Source: a virus. From it: DNA of 31,611 nucleotides. Shown here piece by piece: positions 5,593-31,611 of this stretch. Position 1 is the stretch's first letter, and each line of letters starts with the position of its first letter. The stretch lies in IMG/VR virus record IMGVR_UViG_3300025853_000383, positions 1 through 31,611 of that record, one strand, 5' to 3'. The position numbers and the translations under genes were made by a program. Under the pieces are notes generated by a model that ran no database searches, had not been told where the DNA came from, and saw only the letters and a list, made by a program, of their open reading frames with translations.

Positions 5593-6765
5593 ATGGCGAA
5601 TCGTAAAGGCGGGTTCATCAACCAAGATGGCCTGAATGCTCCTGATGAACCGACTGGTGTAAGCGCATCGGCAGGTGACGAGGAAGCTACCGTAAGCTTC
5701 ACCGCGCCGTCTGATGTGGGTGGCTCTGCTGTCACGGGCTACGTTGCCACGTCCAATGACGGTATCGGCGCTACGGGATCGTCTTCGCCAATTACGGTCA
5801 CTGGCTTGACCAACGACACCGCCTACACTTTCCGTGTCTGGGCACTTAATGCGTTTGGGTGGTCTGCGCCGAGTGATGCGAGCGGGAGTGTTACGCCATC
5901 TATTCCAGACACAGGTGTTTTCTTTGGCGCAGGAGATCCAAACAGTAGTGTCATACAATATATCTCCATTTCATCAACAGGAAATGCGACTGACTGGGGC
6001 GACTTGTCCATAGCCCAAAAGCAACTGGGTGCGTTTGGCAACTCTATCAGAGCTTTAGCTTTTGGTGGAACAGGAACTACTTTCGGAAGCAATTTCATTG
6101 AATACATAACCTTTGCCACTACTGGTAACGCACAAGACTTTGGTGATTTACTTATAGCAAGTGGTGATTCTAGGAATATAGGAATGGCAGGAACCGCCAA
6201 TGATACTAGAGGCCTTTTTATGGGCGGGCAAAACAACAATCAAATATCTTATGTCACTATTGCTTCAACAGGTAACGCTGTTGACTTCGGTGATTTTGCC
6301 ACAACAAGTCGCTCAAATGGTGGAGCGGGATCAAACGGAACGAGAGCGGTTTTTGGTGGTGATGCCGCTGGTATTGAGTATGTCACTATAGCATCCACTG
6401 GAAACGCAACTAGCTTTGGCAACCTATCTGAAACTAGAAATCAAATGGAAGCTGGCTGTAGCACTACTAGAATTGTTTGGATGGGTGGCAGTGTTAGTCC
6501 ATACACGACGATTGATTATGTGACAACAGCAACCACAGGAAATGCAACTGACTTTGGCGATCTTTATACAGGGGCTTTTGAAAACGGTGCGTGTTCGAAT
6601 AAAACAAGGGCAGTTTGCGCTCATGGGTTTAACGGCTCTAGTTTTACCAACGTGATGAGTTACGTCACTATGGCAAGCACAGGAAATTCTACAGATTTTG
6701 GTGATTTACTAGCTGTAGGCTCACAAAGAGCTGGTGCTTCTGATTGCCACGGAGGACTTGCATAA
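5593..6765 (+). CDS. Fibre protein: FN3 domain plus six propeller-like repeats
   Basis: This 390-residue protein has an N-terminal fibronectin type III domain (about residues 16-103, with TYFR-like DTAYTFRVWALNAFGWSAPS) followed by six repeats of about 47 residues. Each repeat carries a Y(V/I)TIASTGNATDFGDL strand pair and an R(A/G)xFxGG turn. The repeat form resembles Kelch-type blades, so a six-bladed propeller is a reasonable inference. It ends with CHGGLA, like its neighbour at 6765. AAGGAGAG precedes the start codon. Composition drops from GC-rich in the FN3 part to AT-rich in the repeats. A receptor-binding or adhesion fibre is likely, the FN3 domain perhaps anchoring to a carbohydrate surface. 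Confidence 0.75.
   Translation: MANRKGGFINQDGLNAPDEPTGVSASAGDEEATVSFTAPSDVGGSAVTGYVATSNDGIGATGSSSPITVTGLTNDTAYTFRVWALNAFGWSAPSDASGSVTPSIPDTGVFFGAGDPNSSVIQYISISSTGNATDWGDLSIAQKQLGAFGNSIRALAFGGTGTTFGSNFIEYITFATTGNAQDFGDLLIASGDSRNIGMAGTANDTRGLFMGGQNNNQISYVTIASTGNAVDFGDFATTSRSNGGAGSNGTRAVFGGDAAGIEYVTIASTGNATSFGNLSETRNQMEAGCSTTRIVWMGGSVSPYTTIDYVTTATTGNATDFGDLYTGAFENGACSNKTRAVCAHGFNGSSFTNVMSYVTMASTGNSTDFGDLLAVGSQRAGASDCHGGLA
5959..6708 (+). repeat. Six ~47-residue propeller-like coding repeats (first fibre)
   Basis: Six copies of the signature YVTIASTGNATDFGDL occur at about 140-base intervals in the gene at 5593. Variants are ISISSTGNATDWGDL, ITFATTGNAQDFGDL, VTIASTGNAVDFGDF, VTIASTGNATSFGNL, VTTATTGNATDFGDL and VTMASTGNSTDFGDL. 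Confidence 0.8.
6250..6293 (+). repeat. Near-identical DNA segment shared with 7464-7507
   Basis: 44 bases match with a single difference (T at 6258, G at 7472), including a 35-base perfect run, between the paralogous fibre genes. It covers the YVTIASTGNAVDFGD signature of one repeat in each gene. Confidence 0.85.
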
Positions 6766-7709
6766 TGCCCAATTATCAAGGTGTGTGGTCCCTGTCCGAG
6801 GTGTATCAGGCTGTTGGTCAAAACAACTGGACTAACCCGCCGCCAGCGCGGGGTTTGTTTGCCGGTGGAACTACTGGCACTGTTATAGCAACCATTGACT
6901 ACATTACTATCGCCACTGCGGGTAACTCCGCAACTTTTGGCTCGTTGATTACCGCACGAGATAGACTGGTAGGCGCCGCGTCAAAGACGCGAGGTCTTTT
7001 TGCTGGCGGCGAGGTTTCCGGTAGCGCGGTCAATACTATTCAATATGTCACCATCAACACCACTGGTAATGCTTCAGATTTTGGTGACCTTCTGTTTTCT
7101 AGTGGCGCGGTCTTTATGGCGTCTGGAGGATCGGACACTAGGGCGTTGTTTAGCGGTGGTCAAACTGTTGACACGATCCAGTATGTTACTATTGCGACAA
7201 CTGGCAACGCCACGGATTTTGGGGACATGACTGTTTCCAGATACTCTCACGCCGGATGCTCTAGCCCGACAAGAACACTTAATGCTGGCGGGCAGCCGCA
7301 AACGGATATCATTGATTATGTGACAACAGCTTCGGCAGGAAACGCCACGGATTTTGGTGACTTGTCCCAAACATTTTATGCGCTTTCAGCAGCGTCTAGT
7401 CAGACGCGAGCGTTGTTTGGTGGCGGCAACAGCACGGCGACATCATACACAGACACGATTGAATATGTCACGATTGCTTCAACAGGTAACGCTGTTGACT
7501 TCGGTGACCTTACAGTTGCAAGACAATATCTTAGCGCGGTTTCTGGAGACAGCTATGCTGTGTTTGGTGGGGGCTATGACGCGGGTGTAACATACAATGT
7601 GCTTGACTTTGTTACCATAGCATCAGCCGGAAACGCATTAGACTTTGGTGATTTGTCTTCGCCTAAAAACTTTATGGGCTCTTGCTCTAACGGTCACGGA
7701 GGGCTCTAA
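6765..7709 (+). CDS. Paralogous fibre protein with six propeller-like repeats
   Basis: The 314-residue protein starts MPNYQGVWSLSEVYQAVGQN at 6765, inside the stop of the preceding gene, with GGAGG at 6751-6755 as ribosome site; this fixes the start over an upstream ATG at 6744. After a short WSL-type linker (residues 1-30) it consists of six repeats with the same TIATTGNATDFGDL signature and RALFxGG turns as the gene at 5593, and it ends CSNGHGGL. The two proteins are therefore paralogues with different N-terminal anchors: FN3 in one, WSLSE peptide in the other. A fibre or receptor-recognition role is inferred. A stretch of DNA is nearly identical between the two genes. Confidence 0.75.
   Translation: MPNYQGVWSLSEVYQAVGQNNWTNPPPARGLFAGGTTGTVIATIDYITIATAGNSATFGSLITARDRLVGAASKTRGLFAGGEVSGSAVNTIQYVTINTTGNASDFGDLLFSSGAVFMASGGSDTRALFSGGQTVDTIQYVTIATTGNATDFGDMTVSRYSHAGCSSPTRTLNAGGQPQTDIIDYVTTASAGNATDFGDLSQTFYALSAASSQTRALFGGGNSTATSYTDTIEYVTIASTGNAVDFGDLTVARQYLSAVSGDSYAVFGGGYDAGVTYNVLDFVTIASAGNALDFGDLSSPKNFMGSCSNGHGGL
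6900..7655 (+). repeat. Six ~47-residue propeller-like coding repeats (second fibre)
   Basis: Six signature copies (ITIATAGNSATFGSL, VTINTTGNASDFGDL, VTIATTGNATDFGDM, VTTASAGNATDFGDL, VTIASTGNAVDFGDL, VTIASAGNALDFGDL) are spaced about 142 bases apart, the same number and period as in the preceding gene. Confidence 0.8.
7464..7507 (+). repeat. Near-identical DNA segment shared with 6250-6293
   Basis: This is the partner copy of the segment at 6250-6293. Other repeats in the two genes code for the same residues with many silent differences, so this match is unusually close. Confidence 0.85.
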
Positions 7710-9774: not shown

Positions 9775-10296
9775 ATGGGCTTGATTCGCATTCGAGAAAC
9801 CGGGGAAGTGGTCACTGAGATCTCTTTTCGGAAGATGCACAAAAAGACGCGCCCGGTGTTGGGAAATCCCATCACTGAAGAGCGCCTTAATGAACTCGGT
9901 GCTGATCCCGTGTTTGAGGGCCCGCAGGCGACGACAACGCCTCCCTATGAGTTCAGCTACAAATCTGGCGTTACGCAGGATGCTGATGGAAAATGGTTTA
10001 CAGTTTATTCTGTTGGGCCAGTGTTTTCAGAATACACAGATGAAAACAACGTAGTGCAAACTGTTGCTGCTCAAACAGAAGCTTATCGCGCCCGTGTTGA
10101 TGCTAGCGCGGCTGCAAGTGTTCGCAACCAACGCAATCAGCTGCTTGCAGAGACTGACTGGATCGTGATCATGCATACGGAAAAAGGGACGAACATCCCC
10201 GCCATGGTAGAACTCTACCGTCAAGCTTTGCGTGACATCACCAATCATGCCAATTTCCCACATCTTTCAGAAGAAGACTGGCCGTCAAAACCATAA
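9775..10296 (+). CDS. Tail fibre assembly chaperone-like protein
   Basis: In this 173-residue protein the C-terminal third has the classic pattern RNQRNQLLAETDWIVIMHTE, then VELYRQALRDITNHANFP and a terminal WPSKP. That is typical of the phage tail assembly chaperone family (Phage_tail_APC / DUF4376-type), which helps fold or attach tail fibres and usually lies directly downstream of the fibre gene, as here. The N-terminal part (residues 1-110) is variable. GAGGAGA precedes the ATG. It is the last gene of the fibre block before a 41-base gap containing a hairpin. Confidence 0.75.
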   Translation: MGLIRIRETGEVVTEISFRKMHKKTRPVLGNPITEERLNELGADPVFEGPQATTTPPYEFSYKSGVTQDADGKWFTVYSVGPVFSEYTDENNVVQTVAAQTEAYRARVDASAAASVRNQRNQLLAETDWIVIMHTEKGTNIPAMVELYRQALRDITNHANFPHLSEEDWPSKP

Positions 10297-10303
10297 AACT
10301 ATA

Positions 10304-10333
10304 TACTCCCGAACACACGCTTATATGGGAGTA
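10304..10333 (+). promoter_or_regulatory. Hairpin enclosing the ribosome binding site of the next gene
   Basis: TACTCCC (10304-10310) and GGGAGTA (10327-10333) form a perfect 7-bp stem with a 16-base loop. The right arm contains the GGGAG Shine-Dalgarno for the ATG at 10338, so the folded RNA would hide the ribosome site. No T-run follows, so it is not a standard intrinsic terminator. A translational control or RNA-processing role is inferred. Confidence 0.5.
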
Positions 10334-10337
10334 AGCT

Positions 10338-11186
10338 ATGACTGATCAAAACGAAAGCAACGCGCTCGTCGTTGCTGAACTTTCTATTCATCTGCCAAGC
10401 GCCAAGCCTGAGTATAAGTCGATGCTGCAAAACATCGATGAGAAGGCTCCGGCTGTGGCGCAGGCGACCTCCAACTTCCACAAGTCGCACTCGCAGTTCA
10501 TGGGCGTCACGCTTGATGTGACGGCTATCACGCCCGTGCGCTCAATCAAGCACACGCTGGCCGAGATTGACCGAACCAGGTCCGCGCTGCAAGAAGCCTA
10601 CATCGGTATGCGGAAGAAAGAGAACAAGCTGAAGAAGCTGGAGCGCAAGCTTGACGAAGAGGATGACGATCTGGAGCGCGAGCTTCTGGAAATCAAAATC
10701 GTCGAGGCTAAGGCGCATCTCATCAGCACGCAGAACCATGTCCAAGGTGCGATCCGCAAGTTGAACTTCTTCACAAACCAATACGACAACCTGATGAAGA
10801 AGCTCGGCAAAGAAGAGTTGACTGAGGAAGACTACGAGATTGAAGAGGTCAAGTATCACATTATGACCTGCATGAAGCAGGCGTTGACTGCGGCCCGCTC
10901 TCGCGGCGGCAGTATCGACGAAGGCAATATGATCTACATTTTTGATCTTGGCCTGCCCGCTGCTGAAGCGCAGATGGAGGTGTATGCTTACCTCTCGTGG
11001 GAAAACGAAATGATGGCGCAGGGCAAGGCCCCGCAGCACTCCGACACTGTGGCGTGGCTGGAGAAGTGCGCGGACAAGTGGGCGCACTGCCCCGCCGAAT
11101 TTGCGAACAGCCGTGGCTTCCAAATCCTCGACAAGACATCTCTGACGAATGTGGCTCTGGAAGATCACAGCAAGGAGGACGAGTAA
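10338..11186 (+). CDS. Coiled-coil phage protein of unknown function
   Basis: This 282-residue acidic protein has a long charged coiled coil in the middle (about residues 75-160, including KKENKLKKLERKLDEEDDDL). The C-terminal half has CMKQALTAARSRGGSIDEGN and a Trp/Cys-rich segment (AWLEKCADKWAHCPAEFANS). No catalytic motif or membrane segment is visible. It starts just after the hairpin at 10304-10333 and overlaps the glycosyltransferase start by one base (TAATG). Its place between the fibre block and a glycosyltransferase suggests a virion or assembly role, but I do not recognise it as a named family. Confidence 0.7.
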   Translation: MTDQNESNALVVAELSIHLPSAKPEYKSMLQNIDEKAPAVAQATSNFHKSHSQFMGVTLDVTAITPVRSIKHTLAEIDRTRSALQEAYIGMRKKENKLKKLERKLDEEDDDLERELLEIKIVEAKAHLISTQNHVQGAIRKLNFFTNQYDNLMKKLGKEELTEEDYEIEEVKYHIMTCMKQALTAARSRGGSIDEGNMIYIFDLGLPAAEAQMEVYAYLSWENEMMAQGKAPQHSDTVAWLEKCADKWAHCPAEFANSRGFQILDKTSLTNVALEDHSKEDE

Positions 11187-23021: not shown

Positions 23022-23507
23022 TCACAGCATCTGCTTAATCGTACCATGGTTCTGAGAAAACGAATAACGAGAGTTCGCTTTCATCCGAGCATTATTTGCT
23101 TGCTTTTCGGTGGTGAACAAACCCAGATGTACCTGCTTACGGTCCACCGTCACATAAGCACGCCACTTGTTTTTGCACCTACTCACTCCTACAAACCCAG
23201 AGGTATTGTTCTTGTATGTGGTTTTGTTGCGTGCGTTTTCAGTCTTGGATGCAGTTCGCAAGTTACATATTCGGTTGTCCGTTTTATTTTGGTTAACGTG
23301 ATCTATGTCCCCATCAGGCCATGTACCATACTCTAGCGCCCACATCACACGATGCGCCAAATAGTTTTTGCCAAAAACTTTCCCGTATAAGTAGCCTTGC
23401 GTTTGAACCGACACAAAGGCGGCTCTGTTATTGTACTTGTTTCTCCAGTGGATTTTTCCAGAAGCAGGATCCCAAGTGAACAGCTCTCGTAGTTGTTCCG
23501 GTGTCAT
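23022..23507 (-). CDS. HNH endonuclease with AP2 DNA-binding domain (homing type)
   Basis: In this 161-residue protein the HNH core spans about residues 50-95 (LAHRVMWALEYGTWPDGDID, then HVNQNKTDNRICNLRTAS), with His70 and the Asn residues in the expected places. An AP2-type DNA-binding domain follows (residues 102-140: TSGFVGVSRCKNKWRAYVTV). This architecture is known in free-standing phage homing endonucleases, which cut and spread into unoccupied alleles. Its start overlaps the polA stop (ATGA), and a 19-bp direct repeat brackets the gene. By hand count of four 60-base lines it is about 45% GC. It is likely a selfish insertion in the replication operon. Confidence 0.85.
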   Translation of the reverse strand: MTPEQLRELFTWDPASGKIHWRNKYNNRAAFVSVQTQGYLYGKVFGKNYLAHRVMWALEYGTWPDGDIDHVNQNKTDNRICNLRTASKTENARNKTTYKNNTSGFVGVSRCKNKWRAYVTVDRKQVHLGLFTTEKQANNARMKANSRYSFSQNHGTIKQML

Positions 23508-23519
23508 TCGACCTCTCCC
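23501..23519. repeat. 19-bp direct repeat, copy B
   Basis: This is the second identical copy, 501 bases from the first. It covers the end of polA (GEVE and stop) and the start codon of the HNH gene on the minus strand. Confidence 0.85.
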
Positions 23520-25438
23520 CAGTTGTTAGGCAACCCACGAAGGGCTGGGATATCGTCATCAACTTTAGAAGGTATTTTAAGAGGAAGTCCAGTCTCCATG
23601 ATTTCTTTGATCTGAGCCGCTTGGGATTCGTTCTCCACAGAAAAACAAAGTTCATCATGCACCGTCAGCAAAGGAATGAGGCCCGCGTTAAAACAGTCAG
23701 CCATAGCTTTTTTCGTTTGATCTGCGGCAGATCCTTGGATCAGCTTGTTTAAGGCCTTGTAAGTAAAGGCTCTTTTCAGATTGTTACCTACCGTGCCGTA
23801 CTCTTTCTTCGCCTGTTCGAGGGGCAAAGGTTTGTTGTATCCAAAGGTTTTGGGTTCCCAAAGATGGAAACGGCACAGGCGTCCGAGGATCGTGCGTATC
23901 TGCCCGTTCTTCTCCGCTTGATTGCTTGCAACCGTAGCTAGTTGCTTAACGAACGGAACCTTAGTTTGGTGCTCTTCGATGATGCCCTTCGCCTCTTCGT
24001 CCGATACGCCCAGCTGCGCCGCAAGCTTGCCTACACCCATGCCGTACATGATGCCCAGGTTCACAACCTTGGCTTGCTTACGTGTGATGCCAGCGATGTC
24101 TGCAACCATCTGGTGCAGGTCCACGTCGCCCTTGTGGTATTCCTCGACGATCGTATCAACCACTGGGCTGCGCATGTGATCCGGCATCGACGCAGCAAAG
24201 TGAACGAGCAGCCGTGGCTCCTGTGACGAGTAGTCAAACGAGCCCCACATCTGCCCTTCCTCTGGGATGAACAGGCCACGGATCAGCTTCTTGATGTCAG
24301 GGTCACGCGCCGGGATCTGCTGCAGGTTGGGGTTCGAGGATGAGAAGCGCCCTGTCACCGTGCCACCATCGTCGCTGCGTAGCTGGTGAAATTCCGTGTG
24401 GATCCGCCCGTTATGCGCGTGACGCAGGATGCTGTCGATGAACGTGCTGTCGGCTTTGTCAAACTCACGCAGCCTCACGATCGCCTGGCACACTGGGTGC
24501 GGGTGAGCGTTTAGATACTGCTTGGTGAAAGACGGTGCACCAACCTCGGTCTTTGGATACTGTAGATTCAAAGCATCAAAGACCTGCTGCACAGACGCAG
24601 CCGCCCAAGGTTCGAGGGCCACGCCTGTCTTATTTTTGATGTAGGCTTTCAGCTCTTGGACCTTGGACCTTAGACCTTGGCGGGCAATATCAGCCTTATC
24701 CAGATCCACACGCACGCCACGCATCCGCATCTCCACCATCATCGGGATGAGCGATGTTTCAAGATTGAAAATGTGCGTCAGGTCTTGCTCAGAGATTTCT
24801 ATCTTCAGACGGTCCCACAGTTTCATCGTCATAAACGCATCCTGCTCAGCGTACGCTCCAACGTACGACGCAGGCAGGCGCCACATGTCAGCCTTGGGAT
24901 CGATGCCCCAGTCCTTGGCCGCAGCGCGCAGCATCTTCTCGTCCTTGCGCATATCGATGTAGTCTTTGCCTAGGTTGTTTAGGCTGTAGGACCAGCGGTT
25001 CTCATCGATGATTGCGCCAGTAATCATAGTGTCAATGATTCGACCTTGAACGTTAACCCCTTCTGCGCGCAGCCAGCCCAGATCGTAGGTGGCGTTGTGC
25101 ATCAGCTTGTCGATTTCCGGTGTGGCCATCTGCTTGCTGAGCCACTTCATCGTCATCTTCGGGTCGAGGTTGTGTCCGTTCTCGTGGCGGATCGGAAAGT
25201 ACCAAGCCTGGTCCCCGGCAGCGATGGCGATACCCACGATGAAACCGTCGTTACGCGCCCAGCCTGGGCCAAGCTTTGTAAGGTTTGGGTCGCAGGTCTC
25301 GAGGTCGATGGCGATCTGCGGATAGCAGGTCAGGTCCGGGTAGCTAGATGGGATATTCCAATCAGGCTCTAGCTTCTCACCGAGATCCATTCGCTCGAAG
25401 AATGCGATCGTGCTTTTGTCTTTGCGGTCTCGCGCCAT
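23504..25438 (-). CDS. polA: Family A DNA polymerase with 3'-5' exonuclease, Leu762 type
   Basis: The protein has 644 residues. Exonuclease motifs are IAIDLET (Asp45, Glu47), HNATYDLGWL (Asn115, Asp119) and YAEQD (Tyr196, Asp200). Polymerase motif A is SFDYSSQEPR (Asp402), motif B is RKQAKVVNLGIMYG (Arg453, Lys457, Leu461, Tyr465) and motif C is VHDE (His594-Asp595-Glu596). There is no 5' nuclease domain, as usual for phage replicative PolA. The residue equivalent to E. coli Phe762 is Leu. It replicates the phage genome with the primase and helicases encoded upstream in the same operon. The last third of the gene is lower in GC than the centre. Its stop overlaps the HNH start. Confidence 0.95.
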   Translation of the reverse strand: MARDRKDKSTIAFFERMDLGEKLEPDWNIPSSYPDLTCYPQIAIDLETCDPNLTKLGPGWARNDGFIVGIAIAAGDQAWYFPIRHENGHNLDPKMTMKWLSKQMATPEIDKLMHNATYDLGWLRAEGVNVQGRIIDTMITGAIIDENRWSYSLNNLGKDYIDMRKDEKMLRAAAKDWGIDPKADMWRLPASYVGAYAEQDAFMTMKLWDRLKIEISEQDLTHIFNLETSLIPMMVEMRMRGVRVDLDKADIARQGLRSKVQELKAYIKNKTGVALEPWAAASVQQVFDALNLQYPKTEVGAPSFTKQYLNAHPHPVCQAIVRLREFDKADSTFIDSILRHAHNGRIHTEFHQLRSDDGGTVTGRFSSSNPNLQQIPARDPDIKKLIRGLFIPEEGQMWGSFDYSSQEPRLLVHFAASMPDHMRSPVVDTIVEEYHKGDVDLHQMVADIAGITRKQAKVVNLGIMYGMGVGKLAAQLGVSDEEAKGIIEEHQTKVPFVKQLATVASNQAEKNGQIRTILGRLCRFHLWEPKTFGYNKPLPLEQAKKEYGTVGNNLKRAFTYKALNKLIQGSAADQTKKAMADCFNAGLIPLLTVHDELCFSVENESQAAQIKEIMETGLPLKIPSKVDDDIPALRGLPNNWGEVE

Positions 25439-25441
25439 GCC

Positions 25442-25714
25442 TTAGCCTTTCTCGAAGCTGCCACCCAAAGCGGAGTAGCCACATTTGTCGATCCACGAAT
25501 CTTCATGGTCGATAGTCTCCATGAGGCGGCAGGTCTTCACCCAGTCCATCATCAATGCGACATGCTTGGCTGTCAGCTCACCCTTACAGTTGTCCACGAT
25601 GACGTTCCAACCAGCAGCAATGCGATCGAAATTGTGGAAAGCATCACCGTAATCCTGGGCCCTCTGGCCTGAGATAAGTTCTTTTGCGGTATCTAGAATT
25701 TCGTCGCGTGTCAT
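25442..25714 (-). CDS. DUF6378-like small phage protein
   Basis: The 90-residue protein begins MTRDEILDTAKELISGQRAQ and has DYGDAFHNFDRIAAGW, AKHVALMMDWVKTCRL and a DSWIDKCGYSALGG ending. This pattern matches the small phage family annotated DUF6378, common in replication regions and of unknown biochemical role. The conserved DYGD and DSW(I/V)D motifs suggest a metal- or nucleotide-binding site, and a MazG-like fold has crossed my mind, but that is inference. It overlaps the helicase stop by four bases (ATGA) and ends three bases before polA, so it is cotranscribed with both. Confidence 0.75.
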   Translation of the reverse strand: MTRDEILDTAKELISGQRAQDYGDAFHNFDRIAAGWNVIVDNCKGELTAKHVALMMDWVKTCRLMETIDHEDSWIDKCGYSALGGSFEKG

Positions 25715-27252
25715 ATCGTGTACCTGTATTTTTCAAAGCTTTCAATTAGGTGAAGGTTATCCTTGGTGCGTGTCACCGCAACGTAGAATATCCTGTGCTC
25801 GTCGTCTGGGAATCTTGAGTTTTCAGCTGCACGGGTGCTTCCCAGATACACCACGCAGTTCTCATCCTCCCCGCCCTTCATGGCGTGGATAGTGGAGATC
25901 TTGATACGGGGCGGCTTGGTGATATCCTCACCGCTGTTCTCGATGTTGAGAAGGTACGCCCGCATATCGTTGCCAAGGCCTAGGATCTCAAACGCATCAC
26001 GGTTGTCGGTCGTGTCGCTCTCGCCCTTCTGCTTAAACCCAAACTCCCGGATCAGATCCTTCAGGGTCAGCGTGCTGGTTGGGTCCGCCGCATCCAGAAG
26101 CTTTGTCGCGCCTCGCTTAACCACAGCCTTGTCTCCCTGCTTTGGCACAACCTCGTACAGCTGCCGAACACGATCGACACTGACGCCTTCGCCGCTGCTG
26201 AGCTTACGCCAAGTCTTGATAGCCCGAGCTTGCTCTTCGCTCACAGGTGTGTGCCCCTTCAGCGAGTAGTAGTACCCAGCCTCACGCACATACTTGGCGA
26301 TCTTGTCTGCGTAGTAGTTGGTGCGTGCCATGATGGTCCACGAACCTTGGCGCATGTCGATGCTGTCAAAGTCATAGTGCCAGCGAACCGAACCCTCCTT
26401 GTCCATCGGAGCGTACTCTTTCGGTACTCGTCCCTTGATCCTTTTGACGATACGGTTGGCCACCTCGAACACCTTGCGAGGAAGACGATACGATTGAGTC
26501 AGCACTATCTGCTTTGGAGACATGGAGATAAACTGTTGGATGTTTACCCCTGTCCATCGGTGTATAGCTTGGTCGTCATCCCCCGCGATCAGTACGTCCT
26601 CGGCATACTGCGCCATCTTCTGCACCATCATCCACTGCAGCGGCGTGAGATCCTGTGCCTCGTCGATGATCAATAGCTTCAGCCGAGGCGGCTCACCGAT
26701 CTTGATGAACATCTCGATCATGTCCACGTAGTCGTACTTACCAAGCTTGGCCTTGTACTCTGTGATCGTTTCGAAGATCTGCTTGGCTTTGAACAGGCTC
26801 ACGTCGAAGGTCTCGTGCTCTTTCCACTCCTCCTCCAAGTCCACCATGCGGTAACGCGCGCGGTCGATGATCCGGATGTACTGGCTCCCACGCTTCATGT
26901 CCTGGGGCACCAGCAGTCCATCCTCTGGTATGGCGCTCAGCTTGAACTCCTCGCCCAGCATCCTGCCCAGCGCAGTGTAATCCGCAGAGGACAGCAGGTC
27001 CTCGTTGCGCAGATGCAGGCCAGCGAAACCTGTCGAGTGCAAAGTGCGGAAGTTGCGTAGCTGCTTAGCGTCAAGGTTGAACCGAGTCATCGCCCGTTCG
27101 CGTGCCTCGTGTATAGCCTTGCGGGAGAAAGACACGAACGCAATCTGCGTTGGGTCTACGCCTGCAGCTAGATACTTCTCCATCTCACGCATCAAGAACT
27201 CTGTCTTGCCGCACCCAGGAGGGCCTAGAACTTGTGTACTATTCGGGATCAT
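25711..27252 (-). CDS. UvrD/Rep-like superfamily 1A DNA helicase
   Basis: In this 513-residue protein the Walker A motif is GPPGCGKT (residues 10-17), Walker B is IIDEAQD (195-201), motif III is AGDDDQAIHRW (223-233), motif IV includes TQSYRLP (252-258), motif V is ISTIHAMKGGE (452-462) and motif VI is YVAVTRTKD (490-498). These are the complete SF1A set, so an active 3'-5' ATP-dependent helicase is expected. It is shorter than cellular UvrD (about 720), with reduced accessory subdomains, as in many phage versions. It overlaps the AlpA-like gene at its start by 14 bases. It likely unwinds DNA for PolA during replication or recombination. Confidence 0.92.
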   Translation of the reverse strand: MIPNSTQVLGPPGCGKTEFLMREMEKYLAAGVDPTQIAFVSFSRKAIHEARERAMTRFNLDAKQLRNFRTLHSTGFAGLHLRNEDLLSSADYTALGRMLGEEFKLSAIPEDGLLVPQDMKRGSQYIRIIDRARYRMVDLEEEWKEHETFDVSLFKAKQIFETITEYKAKLGKYDYVDMIEMFIKIGEPPRLKLLIIDEAQDLTPLQWMMVQKMAQYAEDVLIAGDDDQAIHRWTGVNIQQFISMSPKQIVLTQSYRLPRKVFEVANRIVKRIKGRVPKEYAPMDKEGSVRWHYDFDSIDMRQGSWTIMARTNYYADKIAKYVREAGYYYSLKGHTPVSEEQARAIKTWRKLSSGEGVSVDRVRQLYEVVPKQGDKAVVKRGATKLLDAADPTSTLTLKDLIREFGFKQKGESDTTDNRDAFEILGLGNDMRAYLLNIENSGEDITKPPRIKISTIHAMKGGEDENCVVYLGSTRAAENSRFPDDEHRIFYVAVTRTKDNLHLIESFEKYRYTI

Positions 27253-27436
27253 CTCTTCTCTCCTCCAACCATGATTCGATCTGAGCCGGTGTCCATCGCA
27301 ACATGGACCTCGGACCTCCGAGCCTTATCGGGCGTGGCATCGAGTCTTCTTTCACCCACTTGTAAATAGCTGCGGTCGTAACATCGAGGTGCTCTGCCAG
27401 CTCCCTGACTGTGATCAGCTTCTTAGAATGGAACAT
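27239..27436 (-). CDS. AlpA/excisionase-like HTH DNA-binding protein
   Basis: The 65-residue protein carries a winged-helix-type HTH: LITVRELAEHLDVTTAAIYK (residues 7-26) followed by WVKEDSMPRPIRLGG and MLRWTPAQIESWLEER. This is the AlpA/Xis-like (MerR-superfamily) pattern. GAGGAG (27452-27447 on the - strand) ten bases upstream supports the start at 27436; a longer frame to 27550 would lie inside the primase gene. It overlaps the primase by 14 bases and the helicase start by 14 bases. It could be a transcription regulator of the operon or an excisionase, but no integrase is visible. Confidence 0.8.
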   Translation of the reverse strand: MFHSKKLITVRELAEHLDVTTAAIYKWVKEDSMPRPIRLGGPRSMLRWTPAQIESWLEERRDDPE

Positions 27437-28958
27437 CTGAATTGATCTCCTCAACATGCAGGTCGATGTCGTCTTCCTCGAACTCGGGAACCCACCACAC
27501 TCGTAGTGTCCCCCACGACCCGTCAGATTTCTTGTAACGCTGGCGACCACTGAACTCGCCCATGCCGTTCAGTCGCTTGATCTCCTCTTGGATCTTCGCC
27601 CGGTTGTCGGCCCACGGGTGCTGTCGGTTCTTCAAGAACGTGACTAGGCCATCGATCTTGAACTTCACCCGGCCATCATCATGGTAAGGCTTGCCTGTCT
27701 CCATCTCCGCAGGCTCGTACGCCTGTGCGCTGCCATTGCAGTAGGACTTCAGCAGATCCTCGAAGCGGCCTTCCAGCGTCAGCTCCTTGGACACCTCAAT
27801 GAAGGTCGCCTGCTTCAGCATGCGGTTCAGCAGAGACGTCCAGTCCTGCTGCTTCATGGTGGCGGGCACAAAGTTTATCTGTTGTAGACACGCCTTCTGC
27901 CATAACGATTGGTTGTGTAACTCATCCGCTGTCAGCTCCACCCGCTTTCCGTTCACGTCCATGAAGTAGTAACGCGGCTGCGATAGGATCACAGTCAGGC
28001 CACCAACCTGGGCCTTGCTCTCGCTGTCACCACCGACGCCATGCTTCTTGGTGCGGCACAGCTCCTTATCACAGACCGAACAGAACGGCTCGATGTTGCA
28101 GGTGTAGAAGTAGTCCTTCCTCTGCAGCTGCTTGATGATCCCCAATACCTCCTTGGCCTCGAGGTTCGGGACCATGAACTTGCGGTTGTAGTCCTCGACT
28201 ACTTTCTCCCACGTATCGGGATACTTTAGCTTGGCATACACGCCCATCTGCAGAAGCGTGTTGTTGCGCATGTCTCCGACGTAGCCCGTGGCTACAAGAA
28301 TCCGCAGGCAGGGAGGGCCGTCAAGGAAGTGCTCCTTGGATCCAGACAGATCCAAAGCATCGAGGTCGGTCCTCGAAACTCGGCCCTTCTCCACCGCGTC
28401 TAGGAACTCTTCTAGCTCCATCGCCTCAGCCAGCTTGTTGAAGCAGTAGCGTGTTGTCGTTTCCGCGTCGAAGTACGGCATGTTGATAAAGTTGCCGAGG
28501 TCCCCCCGCTCGACCAGGATCGAATCCTGTTTCGGAAAGATCTCACAACCAGAGAACCCAAGAGCGATCGACATTTCTGTCAGATACTCACGGATCAAGG
28601 ACGCTGGATACCAGTCGTCCAGGAATAGGTAGAGGTGTGCCCCGCCGGACTTTGTGCGGCAGTGGAACAGAGGCAGCTTGAGCTGCTGGATCTTTTTCTG
28701 AAGACCTGCATGGTCAAGGTCGTAGACGTCAACGTCCAACGCACCAAACTTACACATGTTCTCTGAGTTGATAGGTATCGCGCCGATGCCTTGCTTACCG
28801 TCGATGTGATCCTGGACCTGCTGGATCGTCATCTTCCCGCGACGAACAAAGCTGTTTGCCTCTGCTTTGCCCTTGCGCCCAATCCTACCAACCGTAGTCT
28901 CGCCATACGCTGCGTCTGATCCGACATACGCAGCCAGCAATCTTTCGGCTAGTGTCAT
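27423..28958 (-). CDS. Archaeo-eukaryotic-type DNA primase with SSB-like C-terminal tip
   Basis: In this 511-residue protein the AEP catalytic core is visible: FGALDVDVYD (Asp75, Asp77), then CRTKSGGAHLYLFL with SGGAH at 104-108, CEIFPKQ (138-144) and GNFINMPYF (155-163). Residues about 210-301 match a primase C-terminal (PriCT-type) helical domain ending in a Cys cluster (Cys287, 293, 296, 301) that probably binds zinc. The rest (310-511) has no recognisable helicase motor. It ends NSDVPF, like the C-terminal tip of bacterial SSB. It makes primers for PolA and partners with separate helicases. Its start overlaps the upstream HNH gene (ATGA). Confidence 0.85.
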   Translation of the reverse strand: MTLAERLLAAYVGSDAAYGETTVGRIGRKGKAEANSFVRRGKMTIQQVQDHIDGKQGIGAIPINSENMCKFGALDVDVYDLDHAGLQKKIQQLKLPLFHCRTKSGGAHLYLFLDDWYPASLIREYLTEMSIALGFSGCEIFPKQDSILVERGDLGNFINMPYFDAETTTRYCFNKLAEAMELEEFLDAVEKGRVSRTDLDALDLSGSKEHFLDGPPCLRILVATGYVGDMRNNTLLQMGVYAKLKYPDTWEKVVEDYNRKFMVPNLEAKEVLGIIKQLQRKDYFYTCNIEPFCSVCDKELCRTKKHGVGGDSESKAQVGGLTVILSQPRYYFMDVNGKRVELTADELHNQSLWQKACLQQINFVPATMKQQDWTSLLNRMLKQATFIEVSKELTLEGRFEDLLKSYCNGSAQAYEPAEMETGKPYHDDGRVKFKIDGLVTFLKNRQHPWADNRAKIQEEIKRLNGMGEFSGRQRYKKSDGSWGTLRVWWVPEFEEDDIDLHVEEINSDVPF

Positions 28959-29386
28959 ACCCTTCCCTTTTTTCTACCTTTAACAACGGGGCTTTTCTCT
29001 CCCGTTCGGTTTCTGCAGTATTCGATAAACCCAGGCATGTTCAGGTTCTCCTTTTGGGTTCCCCACCTGAGGTTGTCCGCCCTGTTGTTCAAAGCGTTTT
29101 CGTCAAGGTGAATTACTATTGCCCCTTCAAAAGGAGGTGGTCCATGAAAAGCTTCGCAGATCAACCTGTGTACTTTCTTTTGGCCGAACTGTCTTGACCT
29201 CAGACCATAGTATTCGTGACGTGCCGTCTTGGAGGCTTTCGTTTTTACCCCCAAAACAGGTTTTGTTTTATACGTCCGAACAGCACCATTCGGCATACGA
29301 CTGGTAGTTTCTGGCAACCTTACATACCCTAAGCTACTAGCCATTAGCCCCGGACACGATGGCACGGGTTTCCACACTTCTTCCAT
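28955..29386 (-). CDS. HNH endonuclease with NUMOD4 domain (homing type)
   Basis: The 143-residue protein has an N-terminal NUMOD4-type element, EEVWKPVPSCPGLMASSLGY, followed by a basic region and an HNH core: KKVHRLICEAFHGPPPFEG, then IHLDENALNNRADNLRWGTQ (His73, His93 and Asn residues in the usual positions). This is a standard free-standing phage homing endonuclease. By hand count of three 60-base lines it is about 46% GC, against 50-58% in the neighbouring primase. It is coupled to the primase by an ATGA overlap, so its insertion did not break the operon. AAGGA precedes its ATG. Confidence 0.88.
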   Translation of the reverse strand: MEEVWKPVPSCPGLMASSLGYVRLPETTSRMPNGAVRTYKTKPVLGVKTKASKTARHEYYGLRSRQFGQKKVHRLICEAFHGPPPFEGAIVIHLDENALNNRADNLRWGTQKENLNMPGFIEYCRNRTGEKSPVVKGRKKGRV

Positions 29387-29447: not shown

Positions 29448-30245
29448 CTAAAAAGGTATATCATCCCCATCCATTTTGGAAGAAGACGGAGCAGAAACAT
29501 CCTCCTCCGGCGCAGCCTTAACCTCACCCGCCGCGATCGAGTCGCGGAAGGCTTTCGCTTCGAGCAGCAGGTCGCGGTTATCTACCAGACCGATGCGCTC
29601 AACTTGCCAGTTGCCCCACGAACCTTGGTCATTGGACTCCTCGACGGAGTACAGGCGCCACATGGTGGCGAACACAGGCGGGGTAACCATCGCACCTGTC
29701 TTGGGGTGCTTGACCTTCTGCATGGCGATCTGCGTCTTCCAACGGCGCGACACCTTGAGCTGCGTGGACTTCATGTCCACAACAACAGGCTGGTACGAAC
29801 CGTCTTCCTCGACGATCAGGCAGAAATGTTGGTCAGACTTGACCAGCTCGTTGCCGTTGGGCAGCAGCTCCTTGGCACCCGAACGGGTGGTCTGCTGCAG
29901 CAGCGGGCTGTTCGCAGGGATCTCACCCTTGAACCCGCCGCCCATGTCACGCGGCACAAACTCCAGATACTTGGTGGTCTGGAAGCAAGGGATCACAGAG
30001 ATACCCTTCTCGCCATCCCAGTACTGGTTGGTCACGTTGTTGAATGCATCGCCAGCGGAGGCGCCCTCGATGAACTCAGCTTTCTTCTTGTTCAGCTGCG
30101 GGCTCAGTGCCTGAAGCAGACGAACAAATGGGATTTGCATCTCGCTGCTGTCGAAGGCCGCGCCCTCTCCAGCAAACTCTAGGATGTCATCCATTACCTC
30201 AGTGGAAACTGCGGTCTCTTGTTTGGTTGCAACTGCGGTGCTCAT
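29448..30245 (-). CDS. Single-stranded DNA-binding-like protein with DDIPF tail
   Basis: This 265-residue protein starts MSTAVATKQETAVSTEVMDD; AGGAAG five bases upstream of the ATG supports this start over a GTG two codons earlier. The middle is a beta-rich domain with QIPFVRLLQALSPQLNKKKA, GISVIPCFQTTKYLEFVPRD and a Trp-rich segment (MWRLYSVEESNDQGSWGNW). The tail after residue 235 is acidic/Ser-rich and ends MDGDDIPF, the same tip that bacterial SSB uses to bind its partners. I do not recognise a classical OB-fold by eye. It lies at the head of the replication operon, two bases after the gene at 30248. An SSB role is inferred. Confidence 0.7.
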   Translation of the reverse strand: MSTAVATKQETAVSTEVMDDILEFAGEGAAFDSSEMQIPFVRLLQALSPQLNKKKAEFIEGASAGDAFNNVTNQYWDGEKGISVIPCFQTTKYLEFVPRDMGGGFKGEIPANSPLLQQTTRSGAKELLPNGNELVKSDQHFCLIVEEDGSYQPVVVDMKSTQLKVSRRWKTQIAMQKVKHPKTGAMVTPPVFATMWRLYSVEESNDQGSWGNWQVERIGLVDNRDLLLEAKAFRDSIAAGEVKAAPEEDVSAPSSSKMDGDDIPF

Positions 30246-30247
30246 GT

Positions 30248-30805
30248 TCACTTCCTTTTGATCTCTGCAGCGTTTGCGATGAAGGCCCCGAACATATCGA
30301 GGTCGATGGGTTTGCCGTTCTCCACGCGCTCTTTAACAAAAGCACGCAGCGTTGACGGGTGAACGTAGGTCTTCTGGCCAGGGTCGTAACCCTCTGCTTC
30401 CAGACGACCGATCAGGTCACCAGCCATGTTGTCTTGGCCCTTGCCAAACGACACAGTCACATCGTTCTTGATGATGTCGTCTAGGCCCTCGGACCTTAGC
30501 CAAGCGAATGCGTCTTCCTTACGGTCGTTAGGAATAGAAGCATGCACCATCATTTTACGTGTCACTGTGACGCCATCGACATCGAGGCGCTCGACACCCA
30601 TCTCATCCATCAGTGCTGGGATGTTCTCAACGGAGAGCTTGTGCTTCTCCTGCTTGAGAGCTTTGACATGGTTCTCAGCATCCTCGATCTCTTTCTCGAC
30701 CGAGCGTAGCTTACGTACCAAATCGCTTAGGGTTTTCCCGGTGGAAGTATTCACATCTCCAAGAGCACCGGCCTCGTCAAAGATGTCGTCAAAGATATCA
30801 GTCAT
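30248..30805 (-). CDS. Coiled-coil early protein of unknown function
   Basis: In this 185-residue protein the N-terminal acidic segment (MTDIFDDIFDEAG) is followed by a coiled coil (about residues 28-62, with LRSVEKEIEDAENHVKALKQ) and a globular end with LDDIIKNDVTVSFGKGQDNM and YVHPSTLRAFVKERVENGKP. The motif G-x-DDIIKN-V and the TLRAFVKE end recur in phage proteins of unknown role found beside SSB-like genes. I chose ATG 30805, preceded by GAGGAA, over a TTG at 30838. It is the first gene of the - strand operon. A helicase-loading or DNA-binding partner role is possible but not shown. Confidence 0.7.
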   Translation of the reverse strand: MTDIFDDIFDEAGALGDVNTSTGKTLSDLVRKLRSVEKEIEDAENHVKALKQEKHKLSVENIPALMDEMGVERLDVDGVTVTRKMMVHASIPNDRKEDAFAWLRSEGLDDIIKNDVTVSFGKGQDNMAGDLIGRLEAEGYDPGQKTYVHPSTLRAFVKERVENGKPIDLDMFGAFIANAAEIKRK

Positions 30806-30883
30806 AAGTTTTTCCTCTTCAGGGTTGCTTGTGGTCAACTTGTTTGCTAACCATGAGCAAGACTATATGAAGGAGCTCAATAC
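30806..30883. promoter_or_regulatory. Divergent control region between replication operon and SNF2 gene
   Basis: These 78 bases separate two diverging genes, so at least one promoter in each direction is expected. On the + strand, TTGCTT (30825-30830) and TAACCA (30848-30853) have a 17-base spacer, a weak sigma70-like pair; AAGGAG (30870-30875) is the ribosome site of the + gene. On the - strand GAGGAA serves the 30805 start, but no convincing -10 is seen. A TTGACC (- strand) also lies here. Confidence 0.4.
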
Positions 30884-31611
30884 ATGTCAATAGACTTTTA
30901 TAAAACTAAACCGTACCAACACCAGGTCGAGGCGTTAAGCCATGGAATGCATGCACATTCTTATGGTTATCTCATGGAGATGGGGACCGGAAAGTCTAAG
31001 GTTCTGATCGACAACATCGCAGCCCTGGCATTGAAAGGCGATCTAAACTTCGCACTGATCATTGCACCCAAAGGCGTGTACCGCAACTGGGTGGCCAAAG
31101 AAATCCCGGAGCATCTGTCCGATAACGTACGCCACCGTGTGATCCGTTGGGTGTCGAGTGCTAACAAGAAACAAAAGGAAGAGATGCAGTCGGTGGCCAA
31201 AGCCTTCGATGGCCTGACCATCTTCGTTATGAATGTCGAATCCTTTTCCACACTCAAGGGTCGCACCGCCGGGGAATGGATGGCCAAGAACTTCGGACGC
31301 AACGGTCTCATCGCCATCGACGAATCAACCACCATCAAGAATCCAAAGGCCAAGCGCACCAAGGCGCTGATGAAGATCGCATCAGGGTTTGCCTACCGCA
31401 GGATCTTGACCGGGTCTCCTATCACCAAGTCACCCATGGATGCATACGCTCAGTTCGAGTTCCTCGGACCTCGGCTCTTAGGCTACGATTCGTACTACGC
31501 ATTTCAGGGCAGGTACGCAGTGACGCAGCAGCGTAAGATGGGGGCGCACTCGTTCCAGCAGGTGGTCGGCTACCGTAACCTCGACGAGCTGACATACCGC
31601 ATCGACCAGCA
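30884..31611 (+). CDS. SNF2-type helicase/ATPase, 3' end outside window
   Basis: 242 residues are visible before the right edge. The protein starts MSIDFYKTKPYQHQVEALSH, an SF2 Q-motif-like beginning. Walker A is MEMGTGKS (31-38), motif Ia is IIAPKGVYRNW (59-69), the Walker B/DExx box is IAIDEST (143-149) followed by IKNPKAKRTK, and motif III is LTGSPI (175-180). The DEST-x-IKNPxAKR pattern is typical of phage SNF2-like proteins. AAGGAG eight bases upstream supports the start. Such proteins translocate on double-stranded DNA and may assist replication or recombination. It is transcribed away from the replication operon. The C-terminal RecA domain is missing only because the window ends. Confidence 0.88.
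   Translation, partial: MSIDFYKTKPYQHQVEALSHGMHAHSYGYLMEMGTGKSKVLIDNIAALALKGDLNFALIIAPKGVYRNWVAKEIPEHLSDNVRHRVIRWVSSANKKQKEEMQSVAKAFDGLTIFVMNVESFSTLKGRTAGEWMAKNFGRNGLIAIDESTTIKNPKAKRTKALMKIASGFAYRRILTGSPITKSPMDAYAQFEFLGPRLLGYDSYYAFQGRYAVTQQRKMGAHSFQQVVGYRNLDELTYRIDQ

Follow-up and report, generated by a model that had tools for sequence, protein, structure and literature searches.

In the virus contig IMGVR_UViG_3300025853_000383 from IMG/VR (31,611 bases; the window, i.e. the whole stretch that was analysed), a primase of the AEP prim-pol type and a single-stranded DNA-binding protein (SSB)-like protein, encoded two genes upstream of it, end in similar residues, NSDVPF and GDDIPF, respectively. 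The primase tip is conserved, it matches the tip of the SSB-like protein across distant phages, the two tips vary together, and together they diverge from the tips of bacterial SSBs. Based on these sequences and on the analogy with phage T7, we consider it fairly probable that the two tips are matched docking peptides for one phage-encoded site. The features concerned are as follows.

27423..28958, minus strand: AEP prim-pol type primase, 511 aa (open reading frame (ORF); Pfam AEP-TOTE; phrog_21866; match to the CAPP prim-pol 7nqf)
27426..27443, minus strand: C-terminal tip of the primase, NSDVPF (read from the ORF; PF kept in 51/51 distinct relatives)
27426..27482, minus strand: acidic tail of the primase, about 19 residues (residues ~493-511 of the AlphaFold2 model)
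29448..30251, minus strand: SSB-like protein of the Pam3 gp34 family, 267 aa (phrog_2402; Pfam PF23977, 2.8e-65; model; OB-fold matches)
29451..29468, minus strand: C-terminal tip of the SSB-like protein, GDDIPF (ORF end)

Both ends had been pointed out in an initial annotation of the window, and both are read directly from the ORFs. The last seven codons of the primase (27423-27443, minus strand) give N-S-D-V-P-F-stop, and the SSB-like protein ends in an acidic linker followed by a DIPF-type extreme C-terminus, as in the bacterial SSB-Ct tip. Conservation was assessed in 80 IMG/VR relatives with 52-100 % identity, of which 51 were distinct after identical DNA was dropped. All complete primases among the 80 end in [DEN][IV]PF, and the terminal PF, on whose retention in close homologues the initial annotation had let its proposal depend, is invariant (51/51). 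The proline is encoded by CCC, CCA, CCG and CCT in 24, 20, 4 and 3 of the distinct relatives and the phenylalanine by TTC and TTT in 49 and 2, and residues -5, -6 and -9 are variable. In the window the tip codons share DNA with the start of the gene that follows (gATGttccattcTAA), which encodes a small helix-turn-helix (HTH) protein. An overlapping ATG of this type is present in only 5/51 distinct relatives, and the overlap was thus rejected as the cause of the conservation. Because PF stays unchanged although four proline codons are used, and the overlapping ATG is mostly absent, the alignments indicate that selection on the tip acts at the protein level. The glutamate at position -8 (window 27447-27449) is also invariant in 51/51 distinct close relatives, and because of this the conserved motif may extend beyond the last two to four residues.

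The first hint of matching came from distant cultured or assembled phages, in which the ends of the two proteins (given as SSB/primase) are alike:

Acinetobacter phage SH-Ab 15497: NSGEF/IKSEF
Kokobel2: EHSEF/PKAEF
pelagiphage HTVC027P: QDIV/ENIV
DSL-LC04: ENIPF/KGSPF
MW202510: DIPFA/PPPFV

For counting, 540 loci were gathered in seven IMG/VR scans and one bacterial-genome scan and the proteins were located with profiles, giving 433 complete primase/SSB pairs; these loci are part of the relatives matched, more than 500 further ones lying outside the counts. The last residue is common to both proteins in 277 of the pairs and the last two residues in 221, compared with 38 of the 18,635 other ORFs of the same loci (0.2 %) whose last two residues equal those of the SSB-like protein of the locus, with no recurrent real family among them. 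Besides DIPF/DIPF, the pairs include tip types altered in both proteins: DIV/NIV (the HTVC027P group), TEL/PDL, SII/DII, QPY/APY, MPY/EPY, PFA/PFV and GEF/SEF, the last with its two genes separated by 6 kb. In 20 of the 57 clusters formed at a primase identity of 60 %, both proteins had the same last two residues, compared to 7.1 after shuffling (maximum 14 in 10,000), and in 31 the same last residue, compared to 18.9. The excess is limited to positions -1 and -2 (z 4.5 and 4.9, respectively) and is absent at positions -3 to -8. For PolA, UvrD, the SNF2 helicase, gp33 and the gp32-like protein, the tip match with the SSB-like protein was absent or weak (z at most 2.1).

As the shuffle test ignores ancestry, the tip type was also simulated on a tree built from the primase without its tail. 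For the joint tip type a kappa of 0.39 was observed, versus 0.21 at the 99th percentile of the null, and it was reached in 0/5000 simulations (p < 0.001); kappa for the last residue alone was also significant (p 0.001 and 0.014). In six Acinetobacter-type loci the primase and SSB-like genes lie 5-6 kb apart and the tips still match or nearly match, which argues that neither adjacency nor conversion is the reason for the matching. Gene conversion between neighbouring gene ends was rejected on this ground and because the two window tips use different codons (ccattctaa and cctttttag). Taken together, the alignments provide good, but not final, evidence that the two tips co-evolve.

The label AEP primase, given in the initial annotation, proved right. 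The protein matches Pfam AEP-TOTE (3.8e-14, 53.3 bits compared to a cut-off of 27), phrog_21866, annotated as primase (7e-89), and, as a sequence profile, the CAPP prim-pol 7nqf (E 2e-14). Its AlphaFold2 model (mean pLDDT 91) matches 7nqf with a Foldseek E of 2e-11 and a Z of 20.6 across 190 residues. The catalytic-type residues D75, D77, K103, S104, G106 and H108 are invariant in 99 primase sequences, with an acidic DxD and an SxxxH-type pattern present, and the score is under the NCBIfam CAPP equivalog cut-off (NF040561, 36.8 bits versus 200). Based on sequence and model we assign the 511-aa ORF to the TOTE/CAPP branch of the AEP prim-pol superfamily, with primer synthesis as its predicted activity. 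Residues 388-495 of the model form a winged-helix-like region, which matches such folds at Z 5-7, and the last ~20 residues are predicted to be a flexible acidic tail after the last strand, which stops at 491 (pLDDT of the final block 53).

The SSB-like protein matches PF23977, the Pam3 gp34 family, with 220.9 bits over residues 15-245 of 267, and phrog_2402 with 1e-62. Its model has a mean pLDDT of 89.6. Foldseek yielded no match to this model with E below 0.001. In VIA-align all Z values were under 8, and the best rows were OB-fold proteins that bind single-stranded DNA (BRCA2 OB 6.9, RB69 gp32 6.7, T4 gp32 6.6, and many SSBs at 3-4); the T4 and RB69 gp32 cores align with the model over 153-156 residues (Z 6.6-6.7). 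The dominance of such proteins among the structural matches supports, without proving it, the label SSB-like of the initial annotation, and the protein is a predicted binder of single-stranded DNA. A comparison with solved structures by sequence gave none resembling the SSB-like protein and no convincing one for the gp33-like protein encoded next to it.

We envisage that each protein would present its last residues at the end of a flexible acidic tail and that both tails would visit the same pocket on a component of the phage replisome. The SSB-coated DNA and the primase would thereby be brought to the pocket in turn or in competition, as with the gp2.5 and gp4 tails on the T7 polymerase, and a change in the pocket would be followed by changes in both tips. 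Direct binding, a single shared pocket and the carrier of this pocket are what we infer here, and the following genes encode candidate carriers of such a socket.

23504..25438, minus strand: family A DNA polymerase of the module, candidate by T7 precedent, without a tip
25711..27252, minus strand: UvrD-type superfamily 1 helicase of the module, without a tip
30884..31609, plus strand: SNF2-type superfamily 2 helicase of the conserved block, truncated by the window end (Pfam SNF2, 9.6e-14)

In our judgement, which is not a measurement, the family A polymerase is the leading though tentative candidate; the SNF2 or UvrD helicase is a possible but weaker one, the DNA groove of the SSB-like protein itself is somewhat less plausible again, and others come after these. 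It is conceivable, if short of probable, that the phage replisome around the AEP prim-pol has evolved a private docking code. The SSB and the primase would share a C-terminal address tag which, along with its phage-encoded reader, leaves the bacterial SSB tag lineage by lineage, so that phage replication proteins recognise each other and not those of the host.

The initial annotation had suggested that the primase tip could use the same partner as the SSB-like protein, and that this partner is either phage-encoded or a host protein. For the first part, the conserved PF and the joint variation of the tips across distant phages provide support, and the host branch of the second is disfavoured as a general explanation. 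If both tips copied the bacterial SSB tip, they would bind the host pockets for SSB partners (DnaG, PriA, RecO, the chi subunit). The window clade fits such mimicry, as its [DEN][IV]PF is of the same type as the bacterial tip, and host binding keeps a place there. Bacterial SSBs were compared from assemblies also holding such phage contigs, although the presence of a contig is not proof of infection; their loci came from a Pfam search, and an E. coli SSB core query was used only to choose the frame. Among these, 19/24 hits end in [ILV]PF, again as mimicry would have it, and the remaining five lack such a tail or end in DLAF. However, the phage tips jointly leave the host consensus (DIV/NIV, QPY/APY, SII/DII, TEL/PDL), and the bacterial SSBs do not have those ends. 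In Pelagibacterales assemblies 5/5 bacterial SSBs end in EIPF or DIPF, and phage pairs in the same assemblies read, for example, QPY/APY and APY/TPY; the phage pairs carry PY, II or IV in both proteins, unlike the bacterial [ILV]PF. Because host SSBs mostly keep their tip while the phage pair departs from it, and because a pocket of host origin would not make the two phage tips diverge from that of the host, a phage-encoded shared socket appears likelier than host mimicry, which we regard as unlikely.

It would also be possible to explain a tip by autoinhibition, the tip covering the DNA groove of the primase or of the SSB-like protein itself until displaced by DNA or by the tip of the other protein. 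The pLDDT of the SSB-like model does increase slightly at the very tip (62 after 51). However, if the SSB tip alone docked on its own protein, there would be no reason for the primase tip to change with it; this would require docking of the primase tip on the SSB groove as well. In addition, the primase tip is itself modelled as flexible, and we consider autoinhibition improbable.

Several results weigh against a common docking site for the two tips. The mutual information between the last residues of primase and SSB was borderline when the SSB was simulated (p = 0.057). A parsimony count found 3 shared changes on the same branch compared to 1.8 expected, which is not significant (p 0.27), the ancestral states being ambiguous on the tree. 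The last residue differs in 26/57 clusters, in some of them merely as F versus Y. A scan of the candidate partners for columns changing with the tip type gave a few columns in every protein, with none standing out. Finally, pelagiphages of the HTVC023P group retain VPF on the SSB-like protein, but their primase ends in HTGKFRT, without such a tip. The primases of the Nanhaivirus phages Pan1 and R26L likewise lack a tip, the SSB-like protein of the lineage keeping VPF. As the primases of both groups are without it, the tip is not universal and, as judged from these genomes, is dispensable in some lineages.

The non-significant same-branch count and the relatedness of the clusters could also be read as shared ancestry and drift, with a few old lineages having similar tips by chance and no functional link. 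Against this stand the invariance of PF despite free synonymous change, the restriction of the signal to this pair of proteins and, within it, to positions -1 and -2, the tree simulation, and the matching of tips whose genes are not adjacent; we consider drift very unlikely. An artefact, be it a tip fixed by the start of the HTH gene, whose ATG does lie within the tip codons in the window, or gene ends homogenised by conversion, is barely credible given the rarity of this ATG, the differing codons and the matches over 5-6 kb.

The lineages with absent or altered primase tips have features of their own. The primases of the HTVC023P group (loci L396-L465) share another conserved end, EMDD[ED][FY]HTGKFRT. 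Pan1 has genes for its own beta clamp and a gamma/tau homologue (L567:2148-3131, 6518-7447) beside PolA, and these may have taken over the coupling. In the 023Pt group (L178-L257) the SSB ends in TPY and the primases mostly in [TVI]PYQ[IEQ][ED][NHD]F; the stretch resembling the TPY-type SSB end is thus internal, five residues short of the C-terminus, which retains its final F.

Paired tails on an SSB and a priming enzyme are already known from T7. T7 gp2.5 ends in EDGDF and gp4 in NDTDF, and the P-SSP7 counterparts in DDDF and STDF. The gp4 tails bind patches on the gp5 polymerase, and their removal lowers coupled synthesis (PMC8835902, PMC8472574); the gp2.5 tail has been implicated in binding the polymerase and the primase-helicase (PMC5686142). 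T7 shows the same arrangement in proteins unrelated to those studied here, its SSB and its priming enzyme both ending in DF. In the window phage, too, flexible acidic tails on the two proteins close with matching residues, and a family A polymerase is likewise encoded. Unlike in T7, the priming enzyme is an AEP prim-pol, without a fused helicase and not homologous to gp4, the SSB is a member of the Pam3 gp34 family, and the tip belongs to the bacterial DIPF type. Here co-variation has been documented in many lineages, whereas docking on the polymerase is suggested by analogy only.

The bacterial SSB tip (DDDIPF) binds more than 14 proteins, including DnaG (PMC5872125). The phage tips resemble it in that a flexible acidic linker leads to DIPF or DVPF as the very last residues, but here a primase also carries the tip, and in relatives its tip drifts to DIV, PDL, PY or EF with that of the phage SSB. 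In phage HK620 the last six residues of the SSB, with the tip NDYPPF, recruit the phage partner Sak4 onto SSB-coated DNA (PMC5928155); there, the tip is reported on the SSB only and the partner is a recombinase. The CAPP and TOTE primases share the catalytic AEP domain with the phage protein, which differs in having its own C-terminal part (the winged-helix-like region and the tip) and in scoring below the CAPP cut-off. In the open literature, as far as our partial coverage extends, we found no report of such a tip on a phage AEP primase, nor of paired tails on an AEP prim-pol and a gp34-type SSB or of their co-variation.

The shared, co-changing tip bears on how AEP-type phage primases are coupled to the rest of the replisome. 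It points to a single reader pocket for such a primase and the SSB, and suggests that the T7-like pairing of tails evolved on more than one occasion, in unrelated proteins. Matching C-terminal residues may also offer a cheap route to partners in unannotated phage replication modules.

The remaining genes of interest in the window are listed below.

30248..30838, minus strand: gp33-like protein (DUF7307), in the same block and upstream, without a tip of this type (PF23984, 3.4e-30)
27239..27439, minus strand: small HTH protein, its ATG inside the primase tip codons
28955-29386 and 23022-23507, minus strand: two HNH_3 endonuclease genes

The HNH_3 gene at 28955-29386 lies between the SSB-like and primase genes. 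Of 72 compared, just the window and three contigs whose primases are identical have it at this position, and we therefore judge it to be a recent insertion; the gene probably encodes a homing endonuclease. The core accompanying the SSB-like protein, in phages with and without an AEP primase, consists of the SNF2 helicase and gp33, usually with a gp32-like protein too.

In phage Pam3, gp35 (L566:16046-16438), a protein of 130 residues with no assigned family whose gene adjoins that of the SSB-like gp34, ends in LDDIPF, and gp34 ends in EDDPPF. This is another paired tip, on an unrelated protein; the part of this phage covered by the search gave no AEP primase. In Vibrio phage K247 (L568:11146-11625 and 9917-10711), the gp34-type protein ends in DIPAEM and a second protein, annotated as SSB, ends in DDDIPF.
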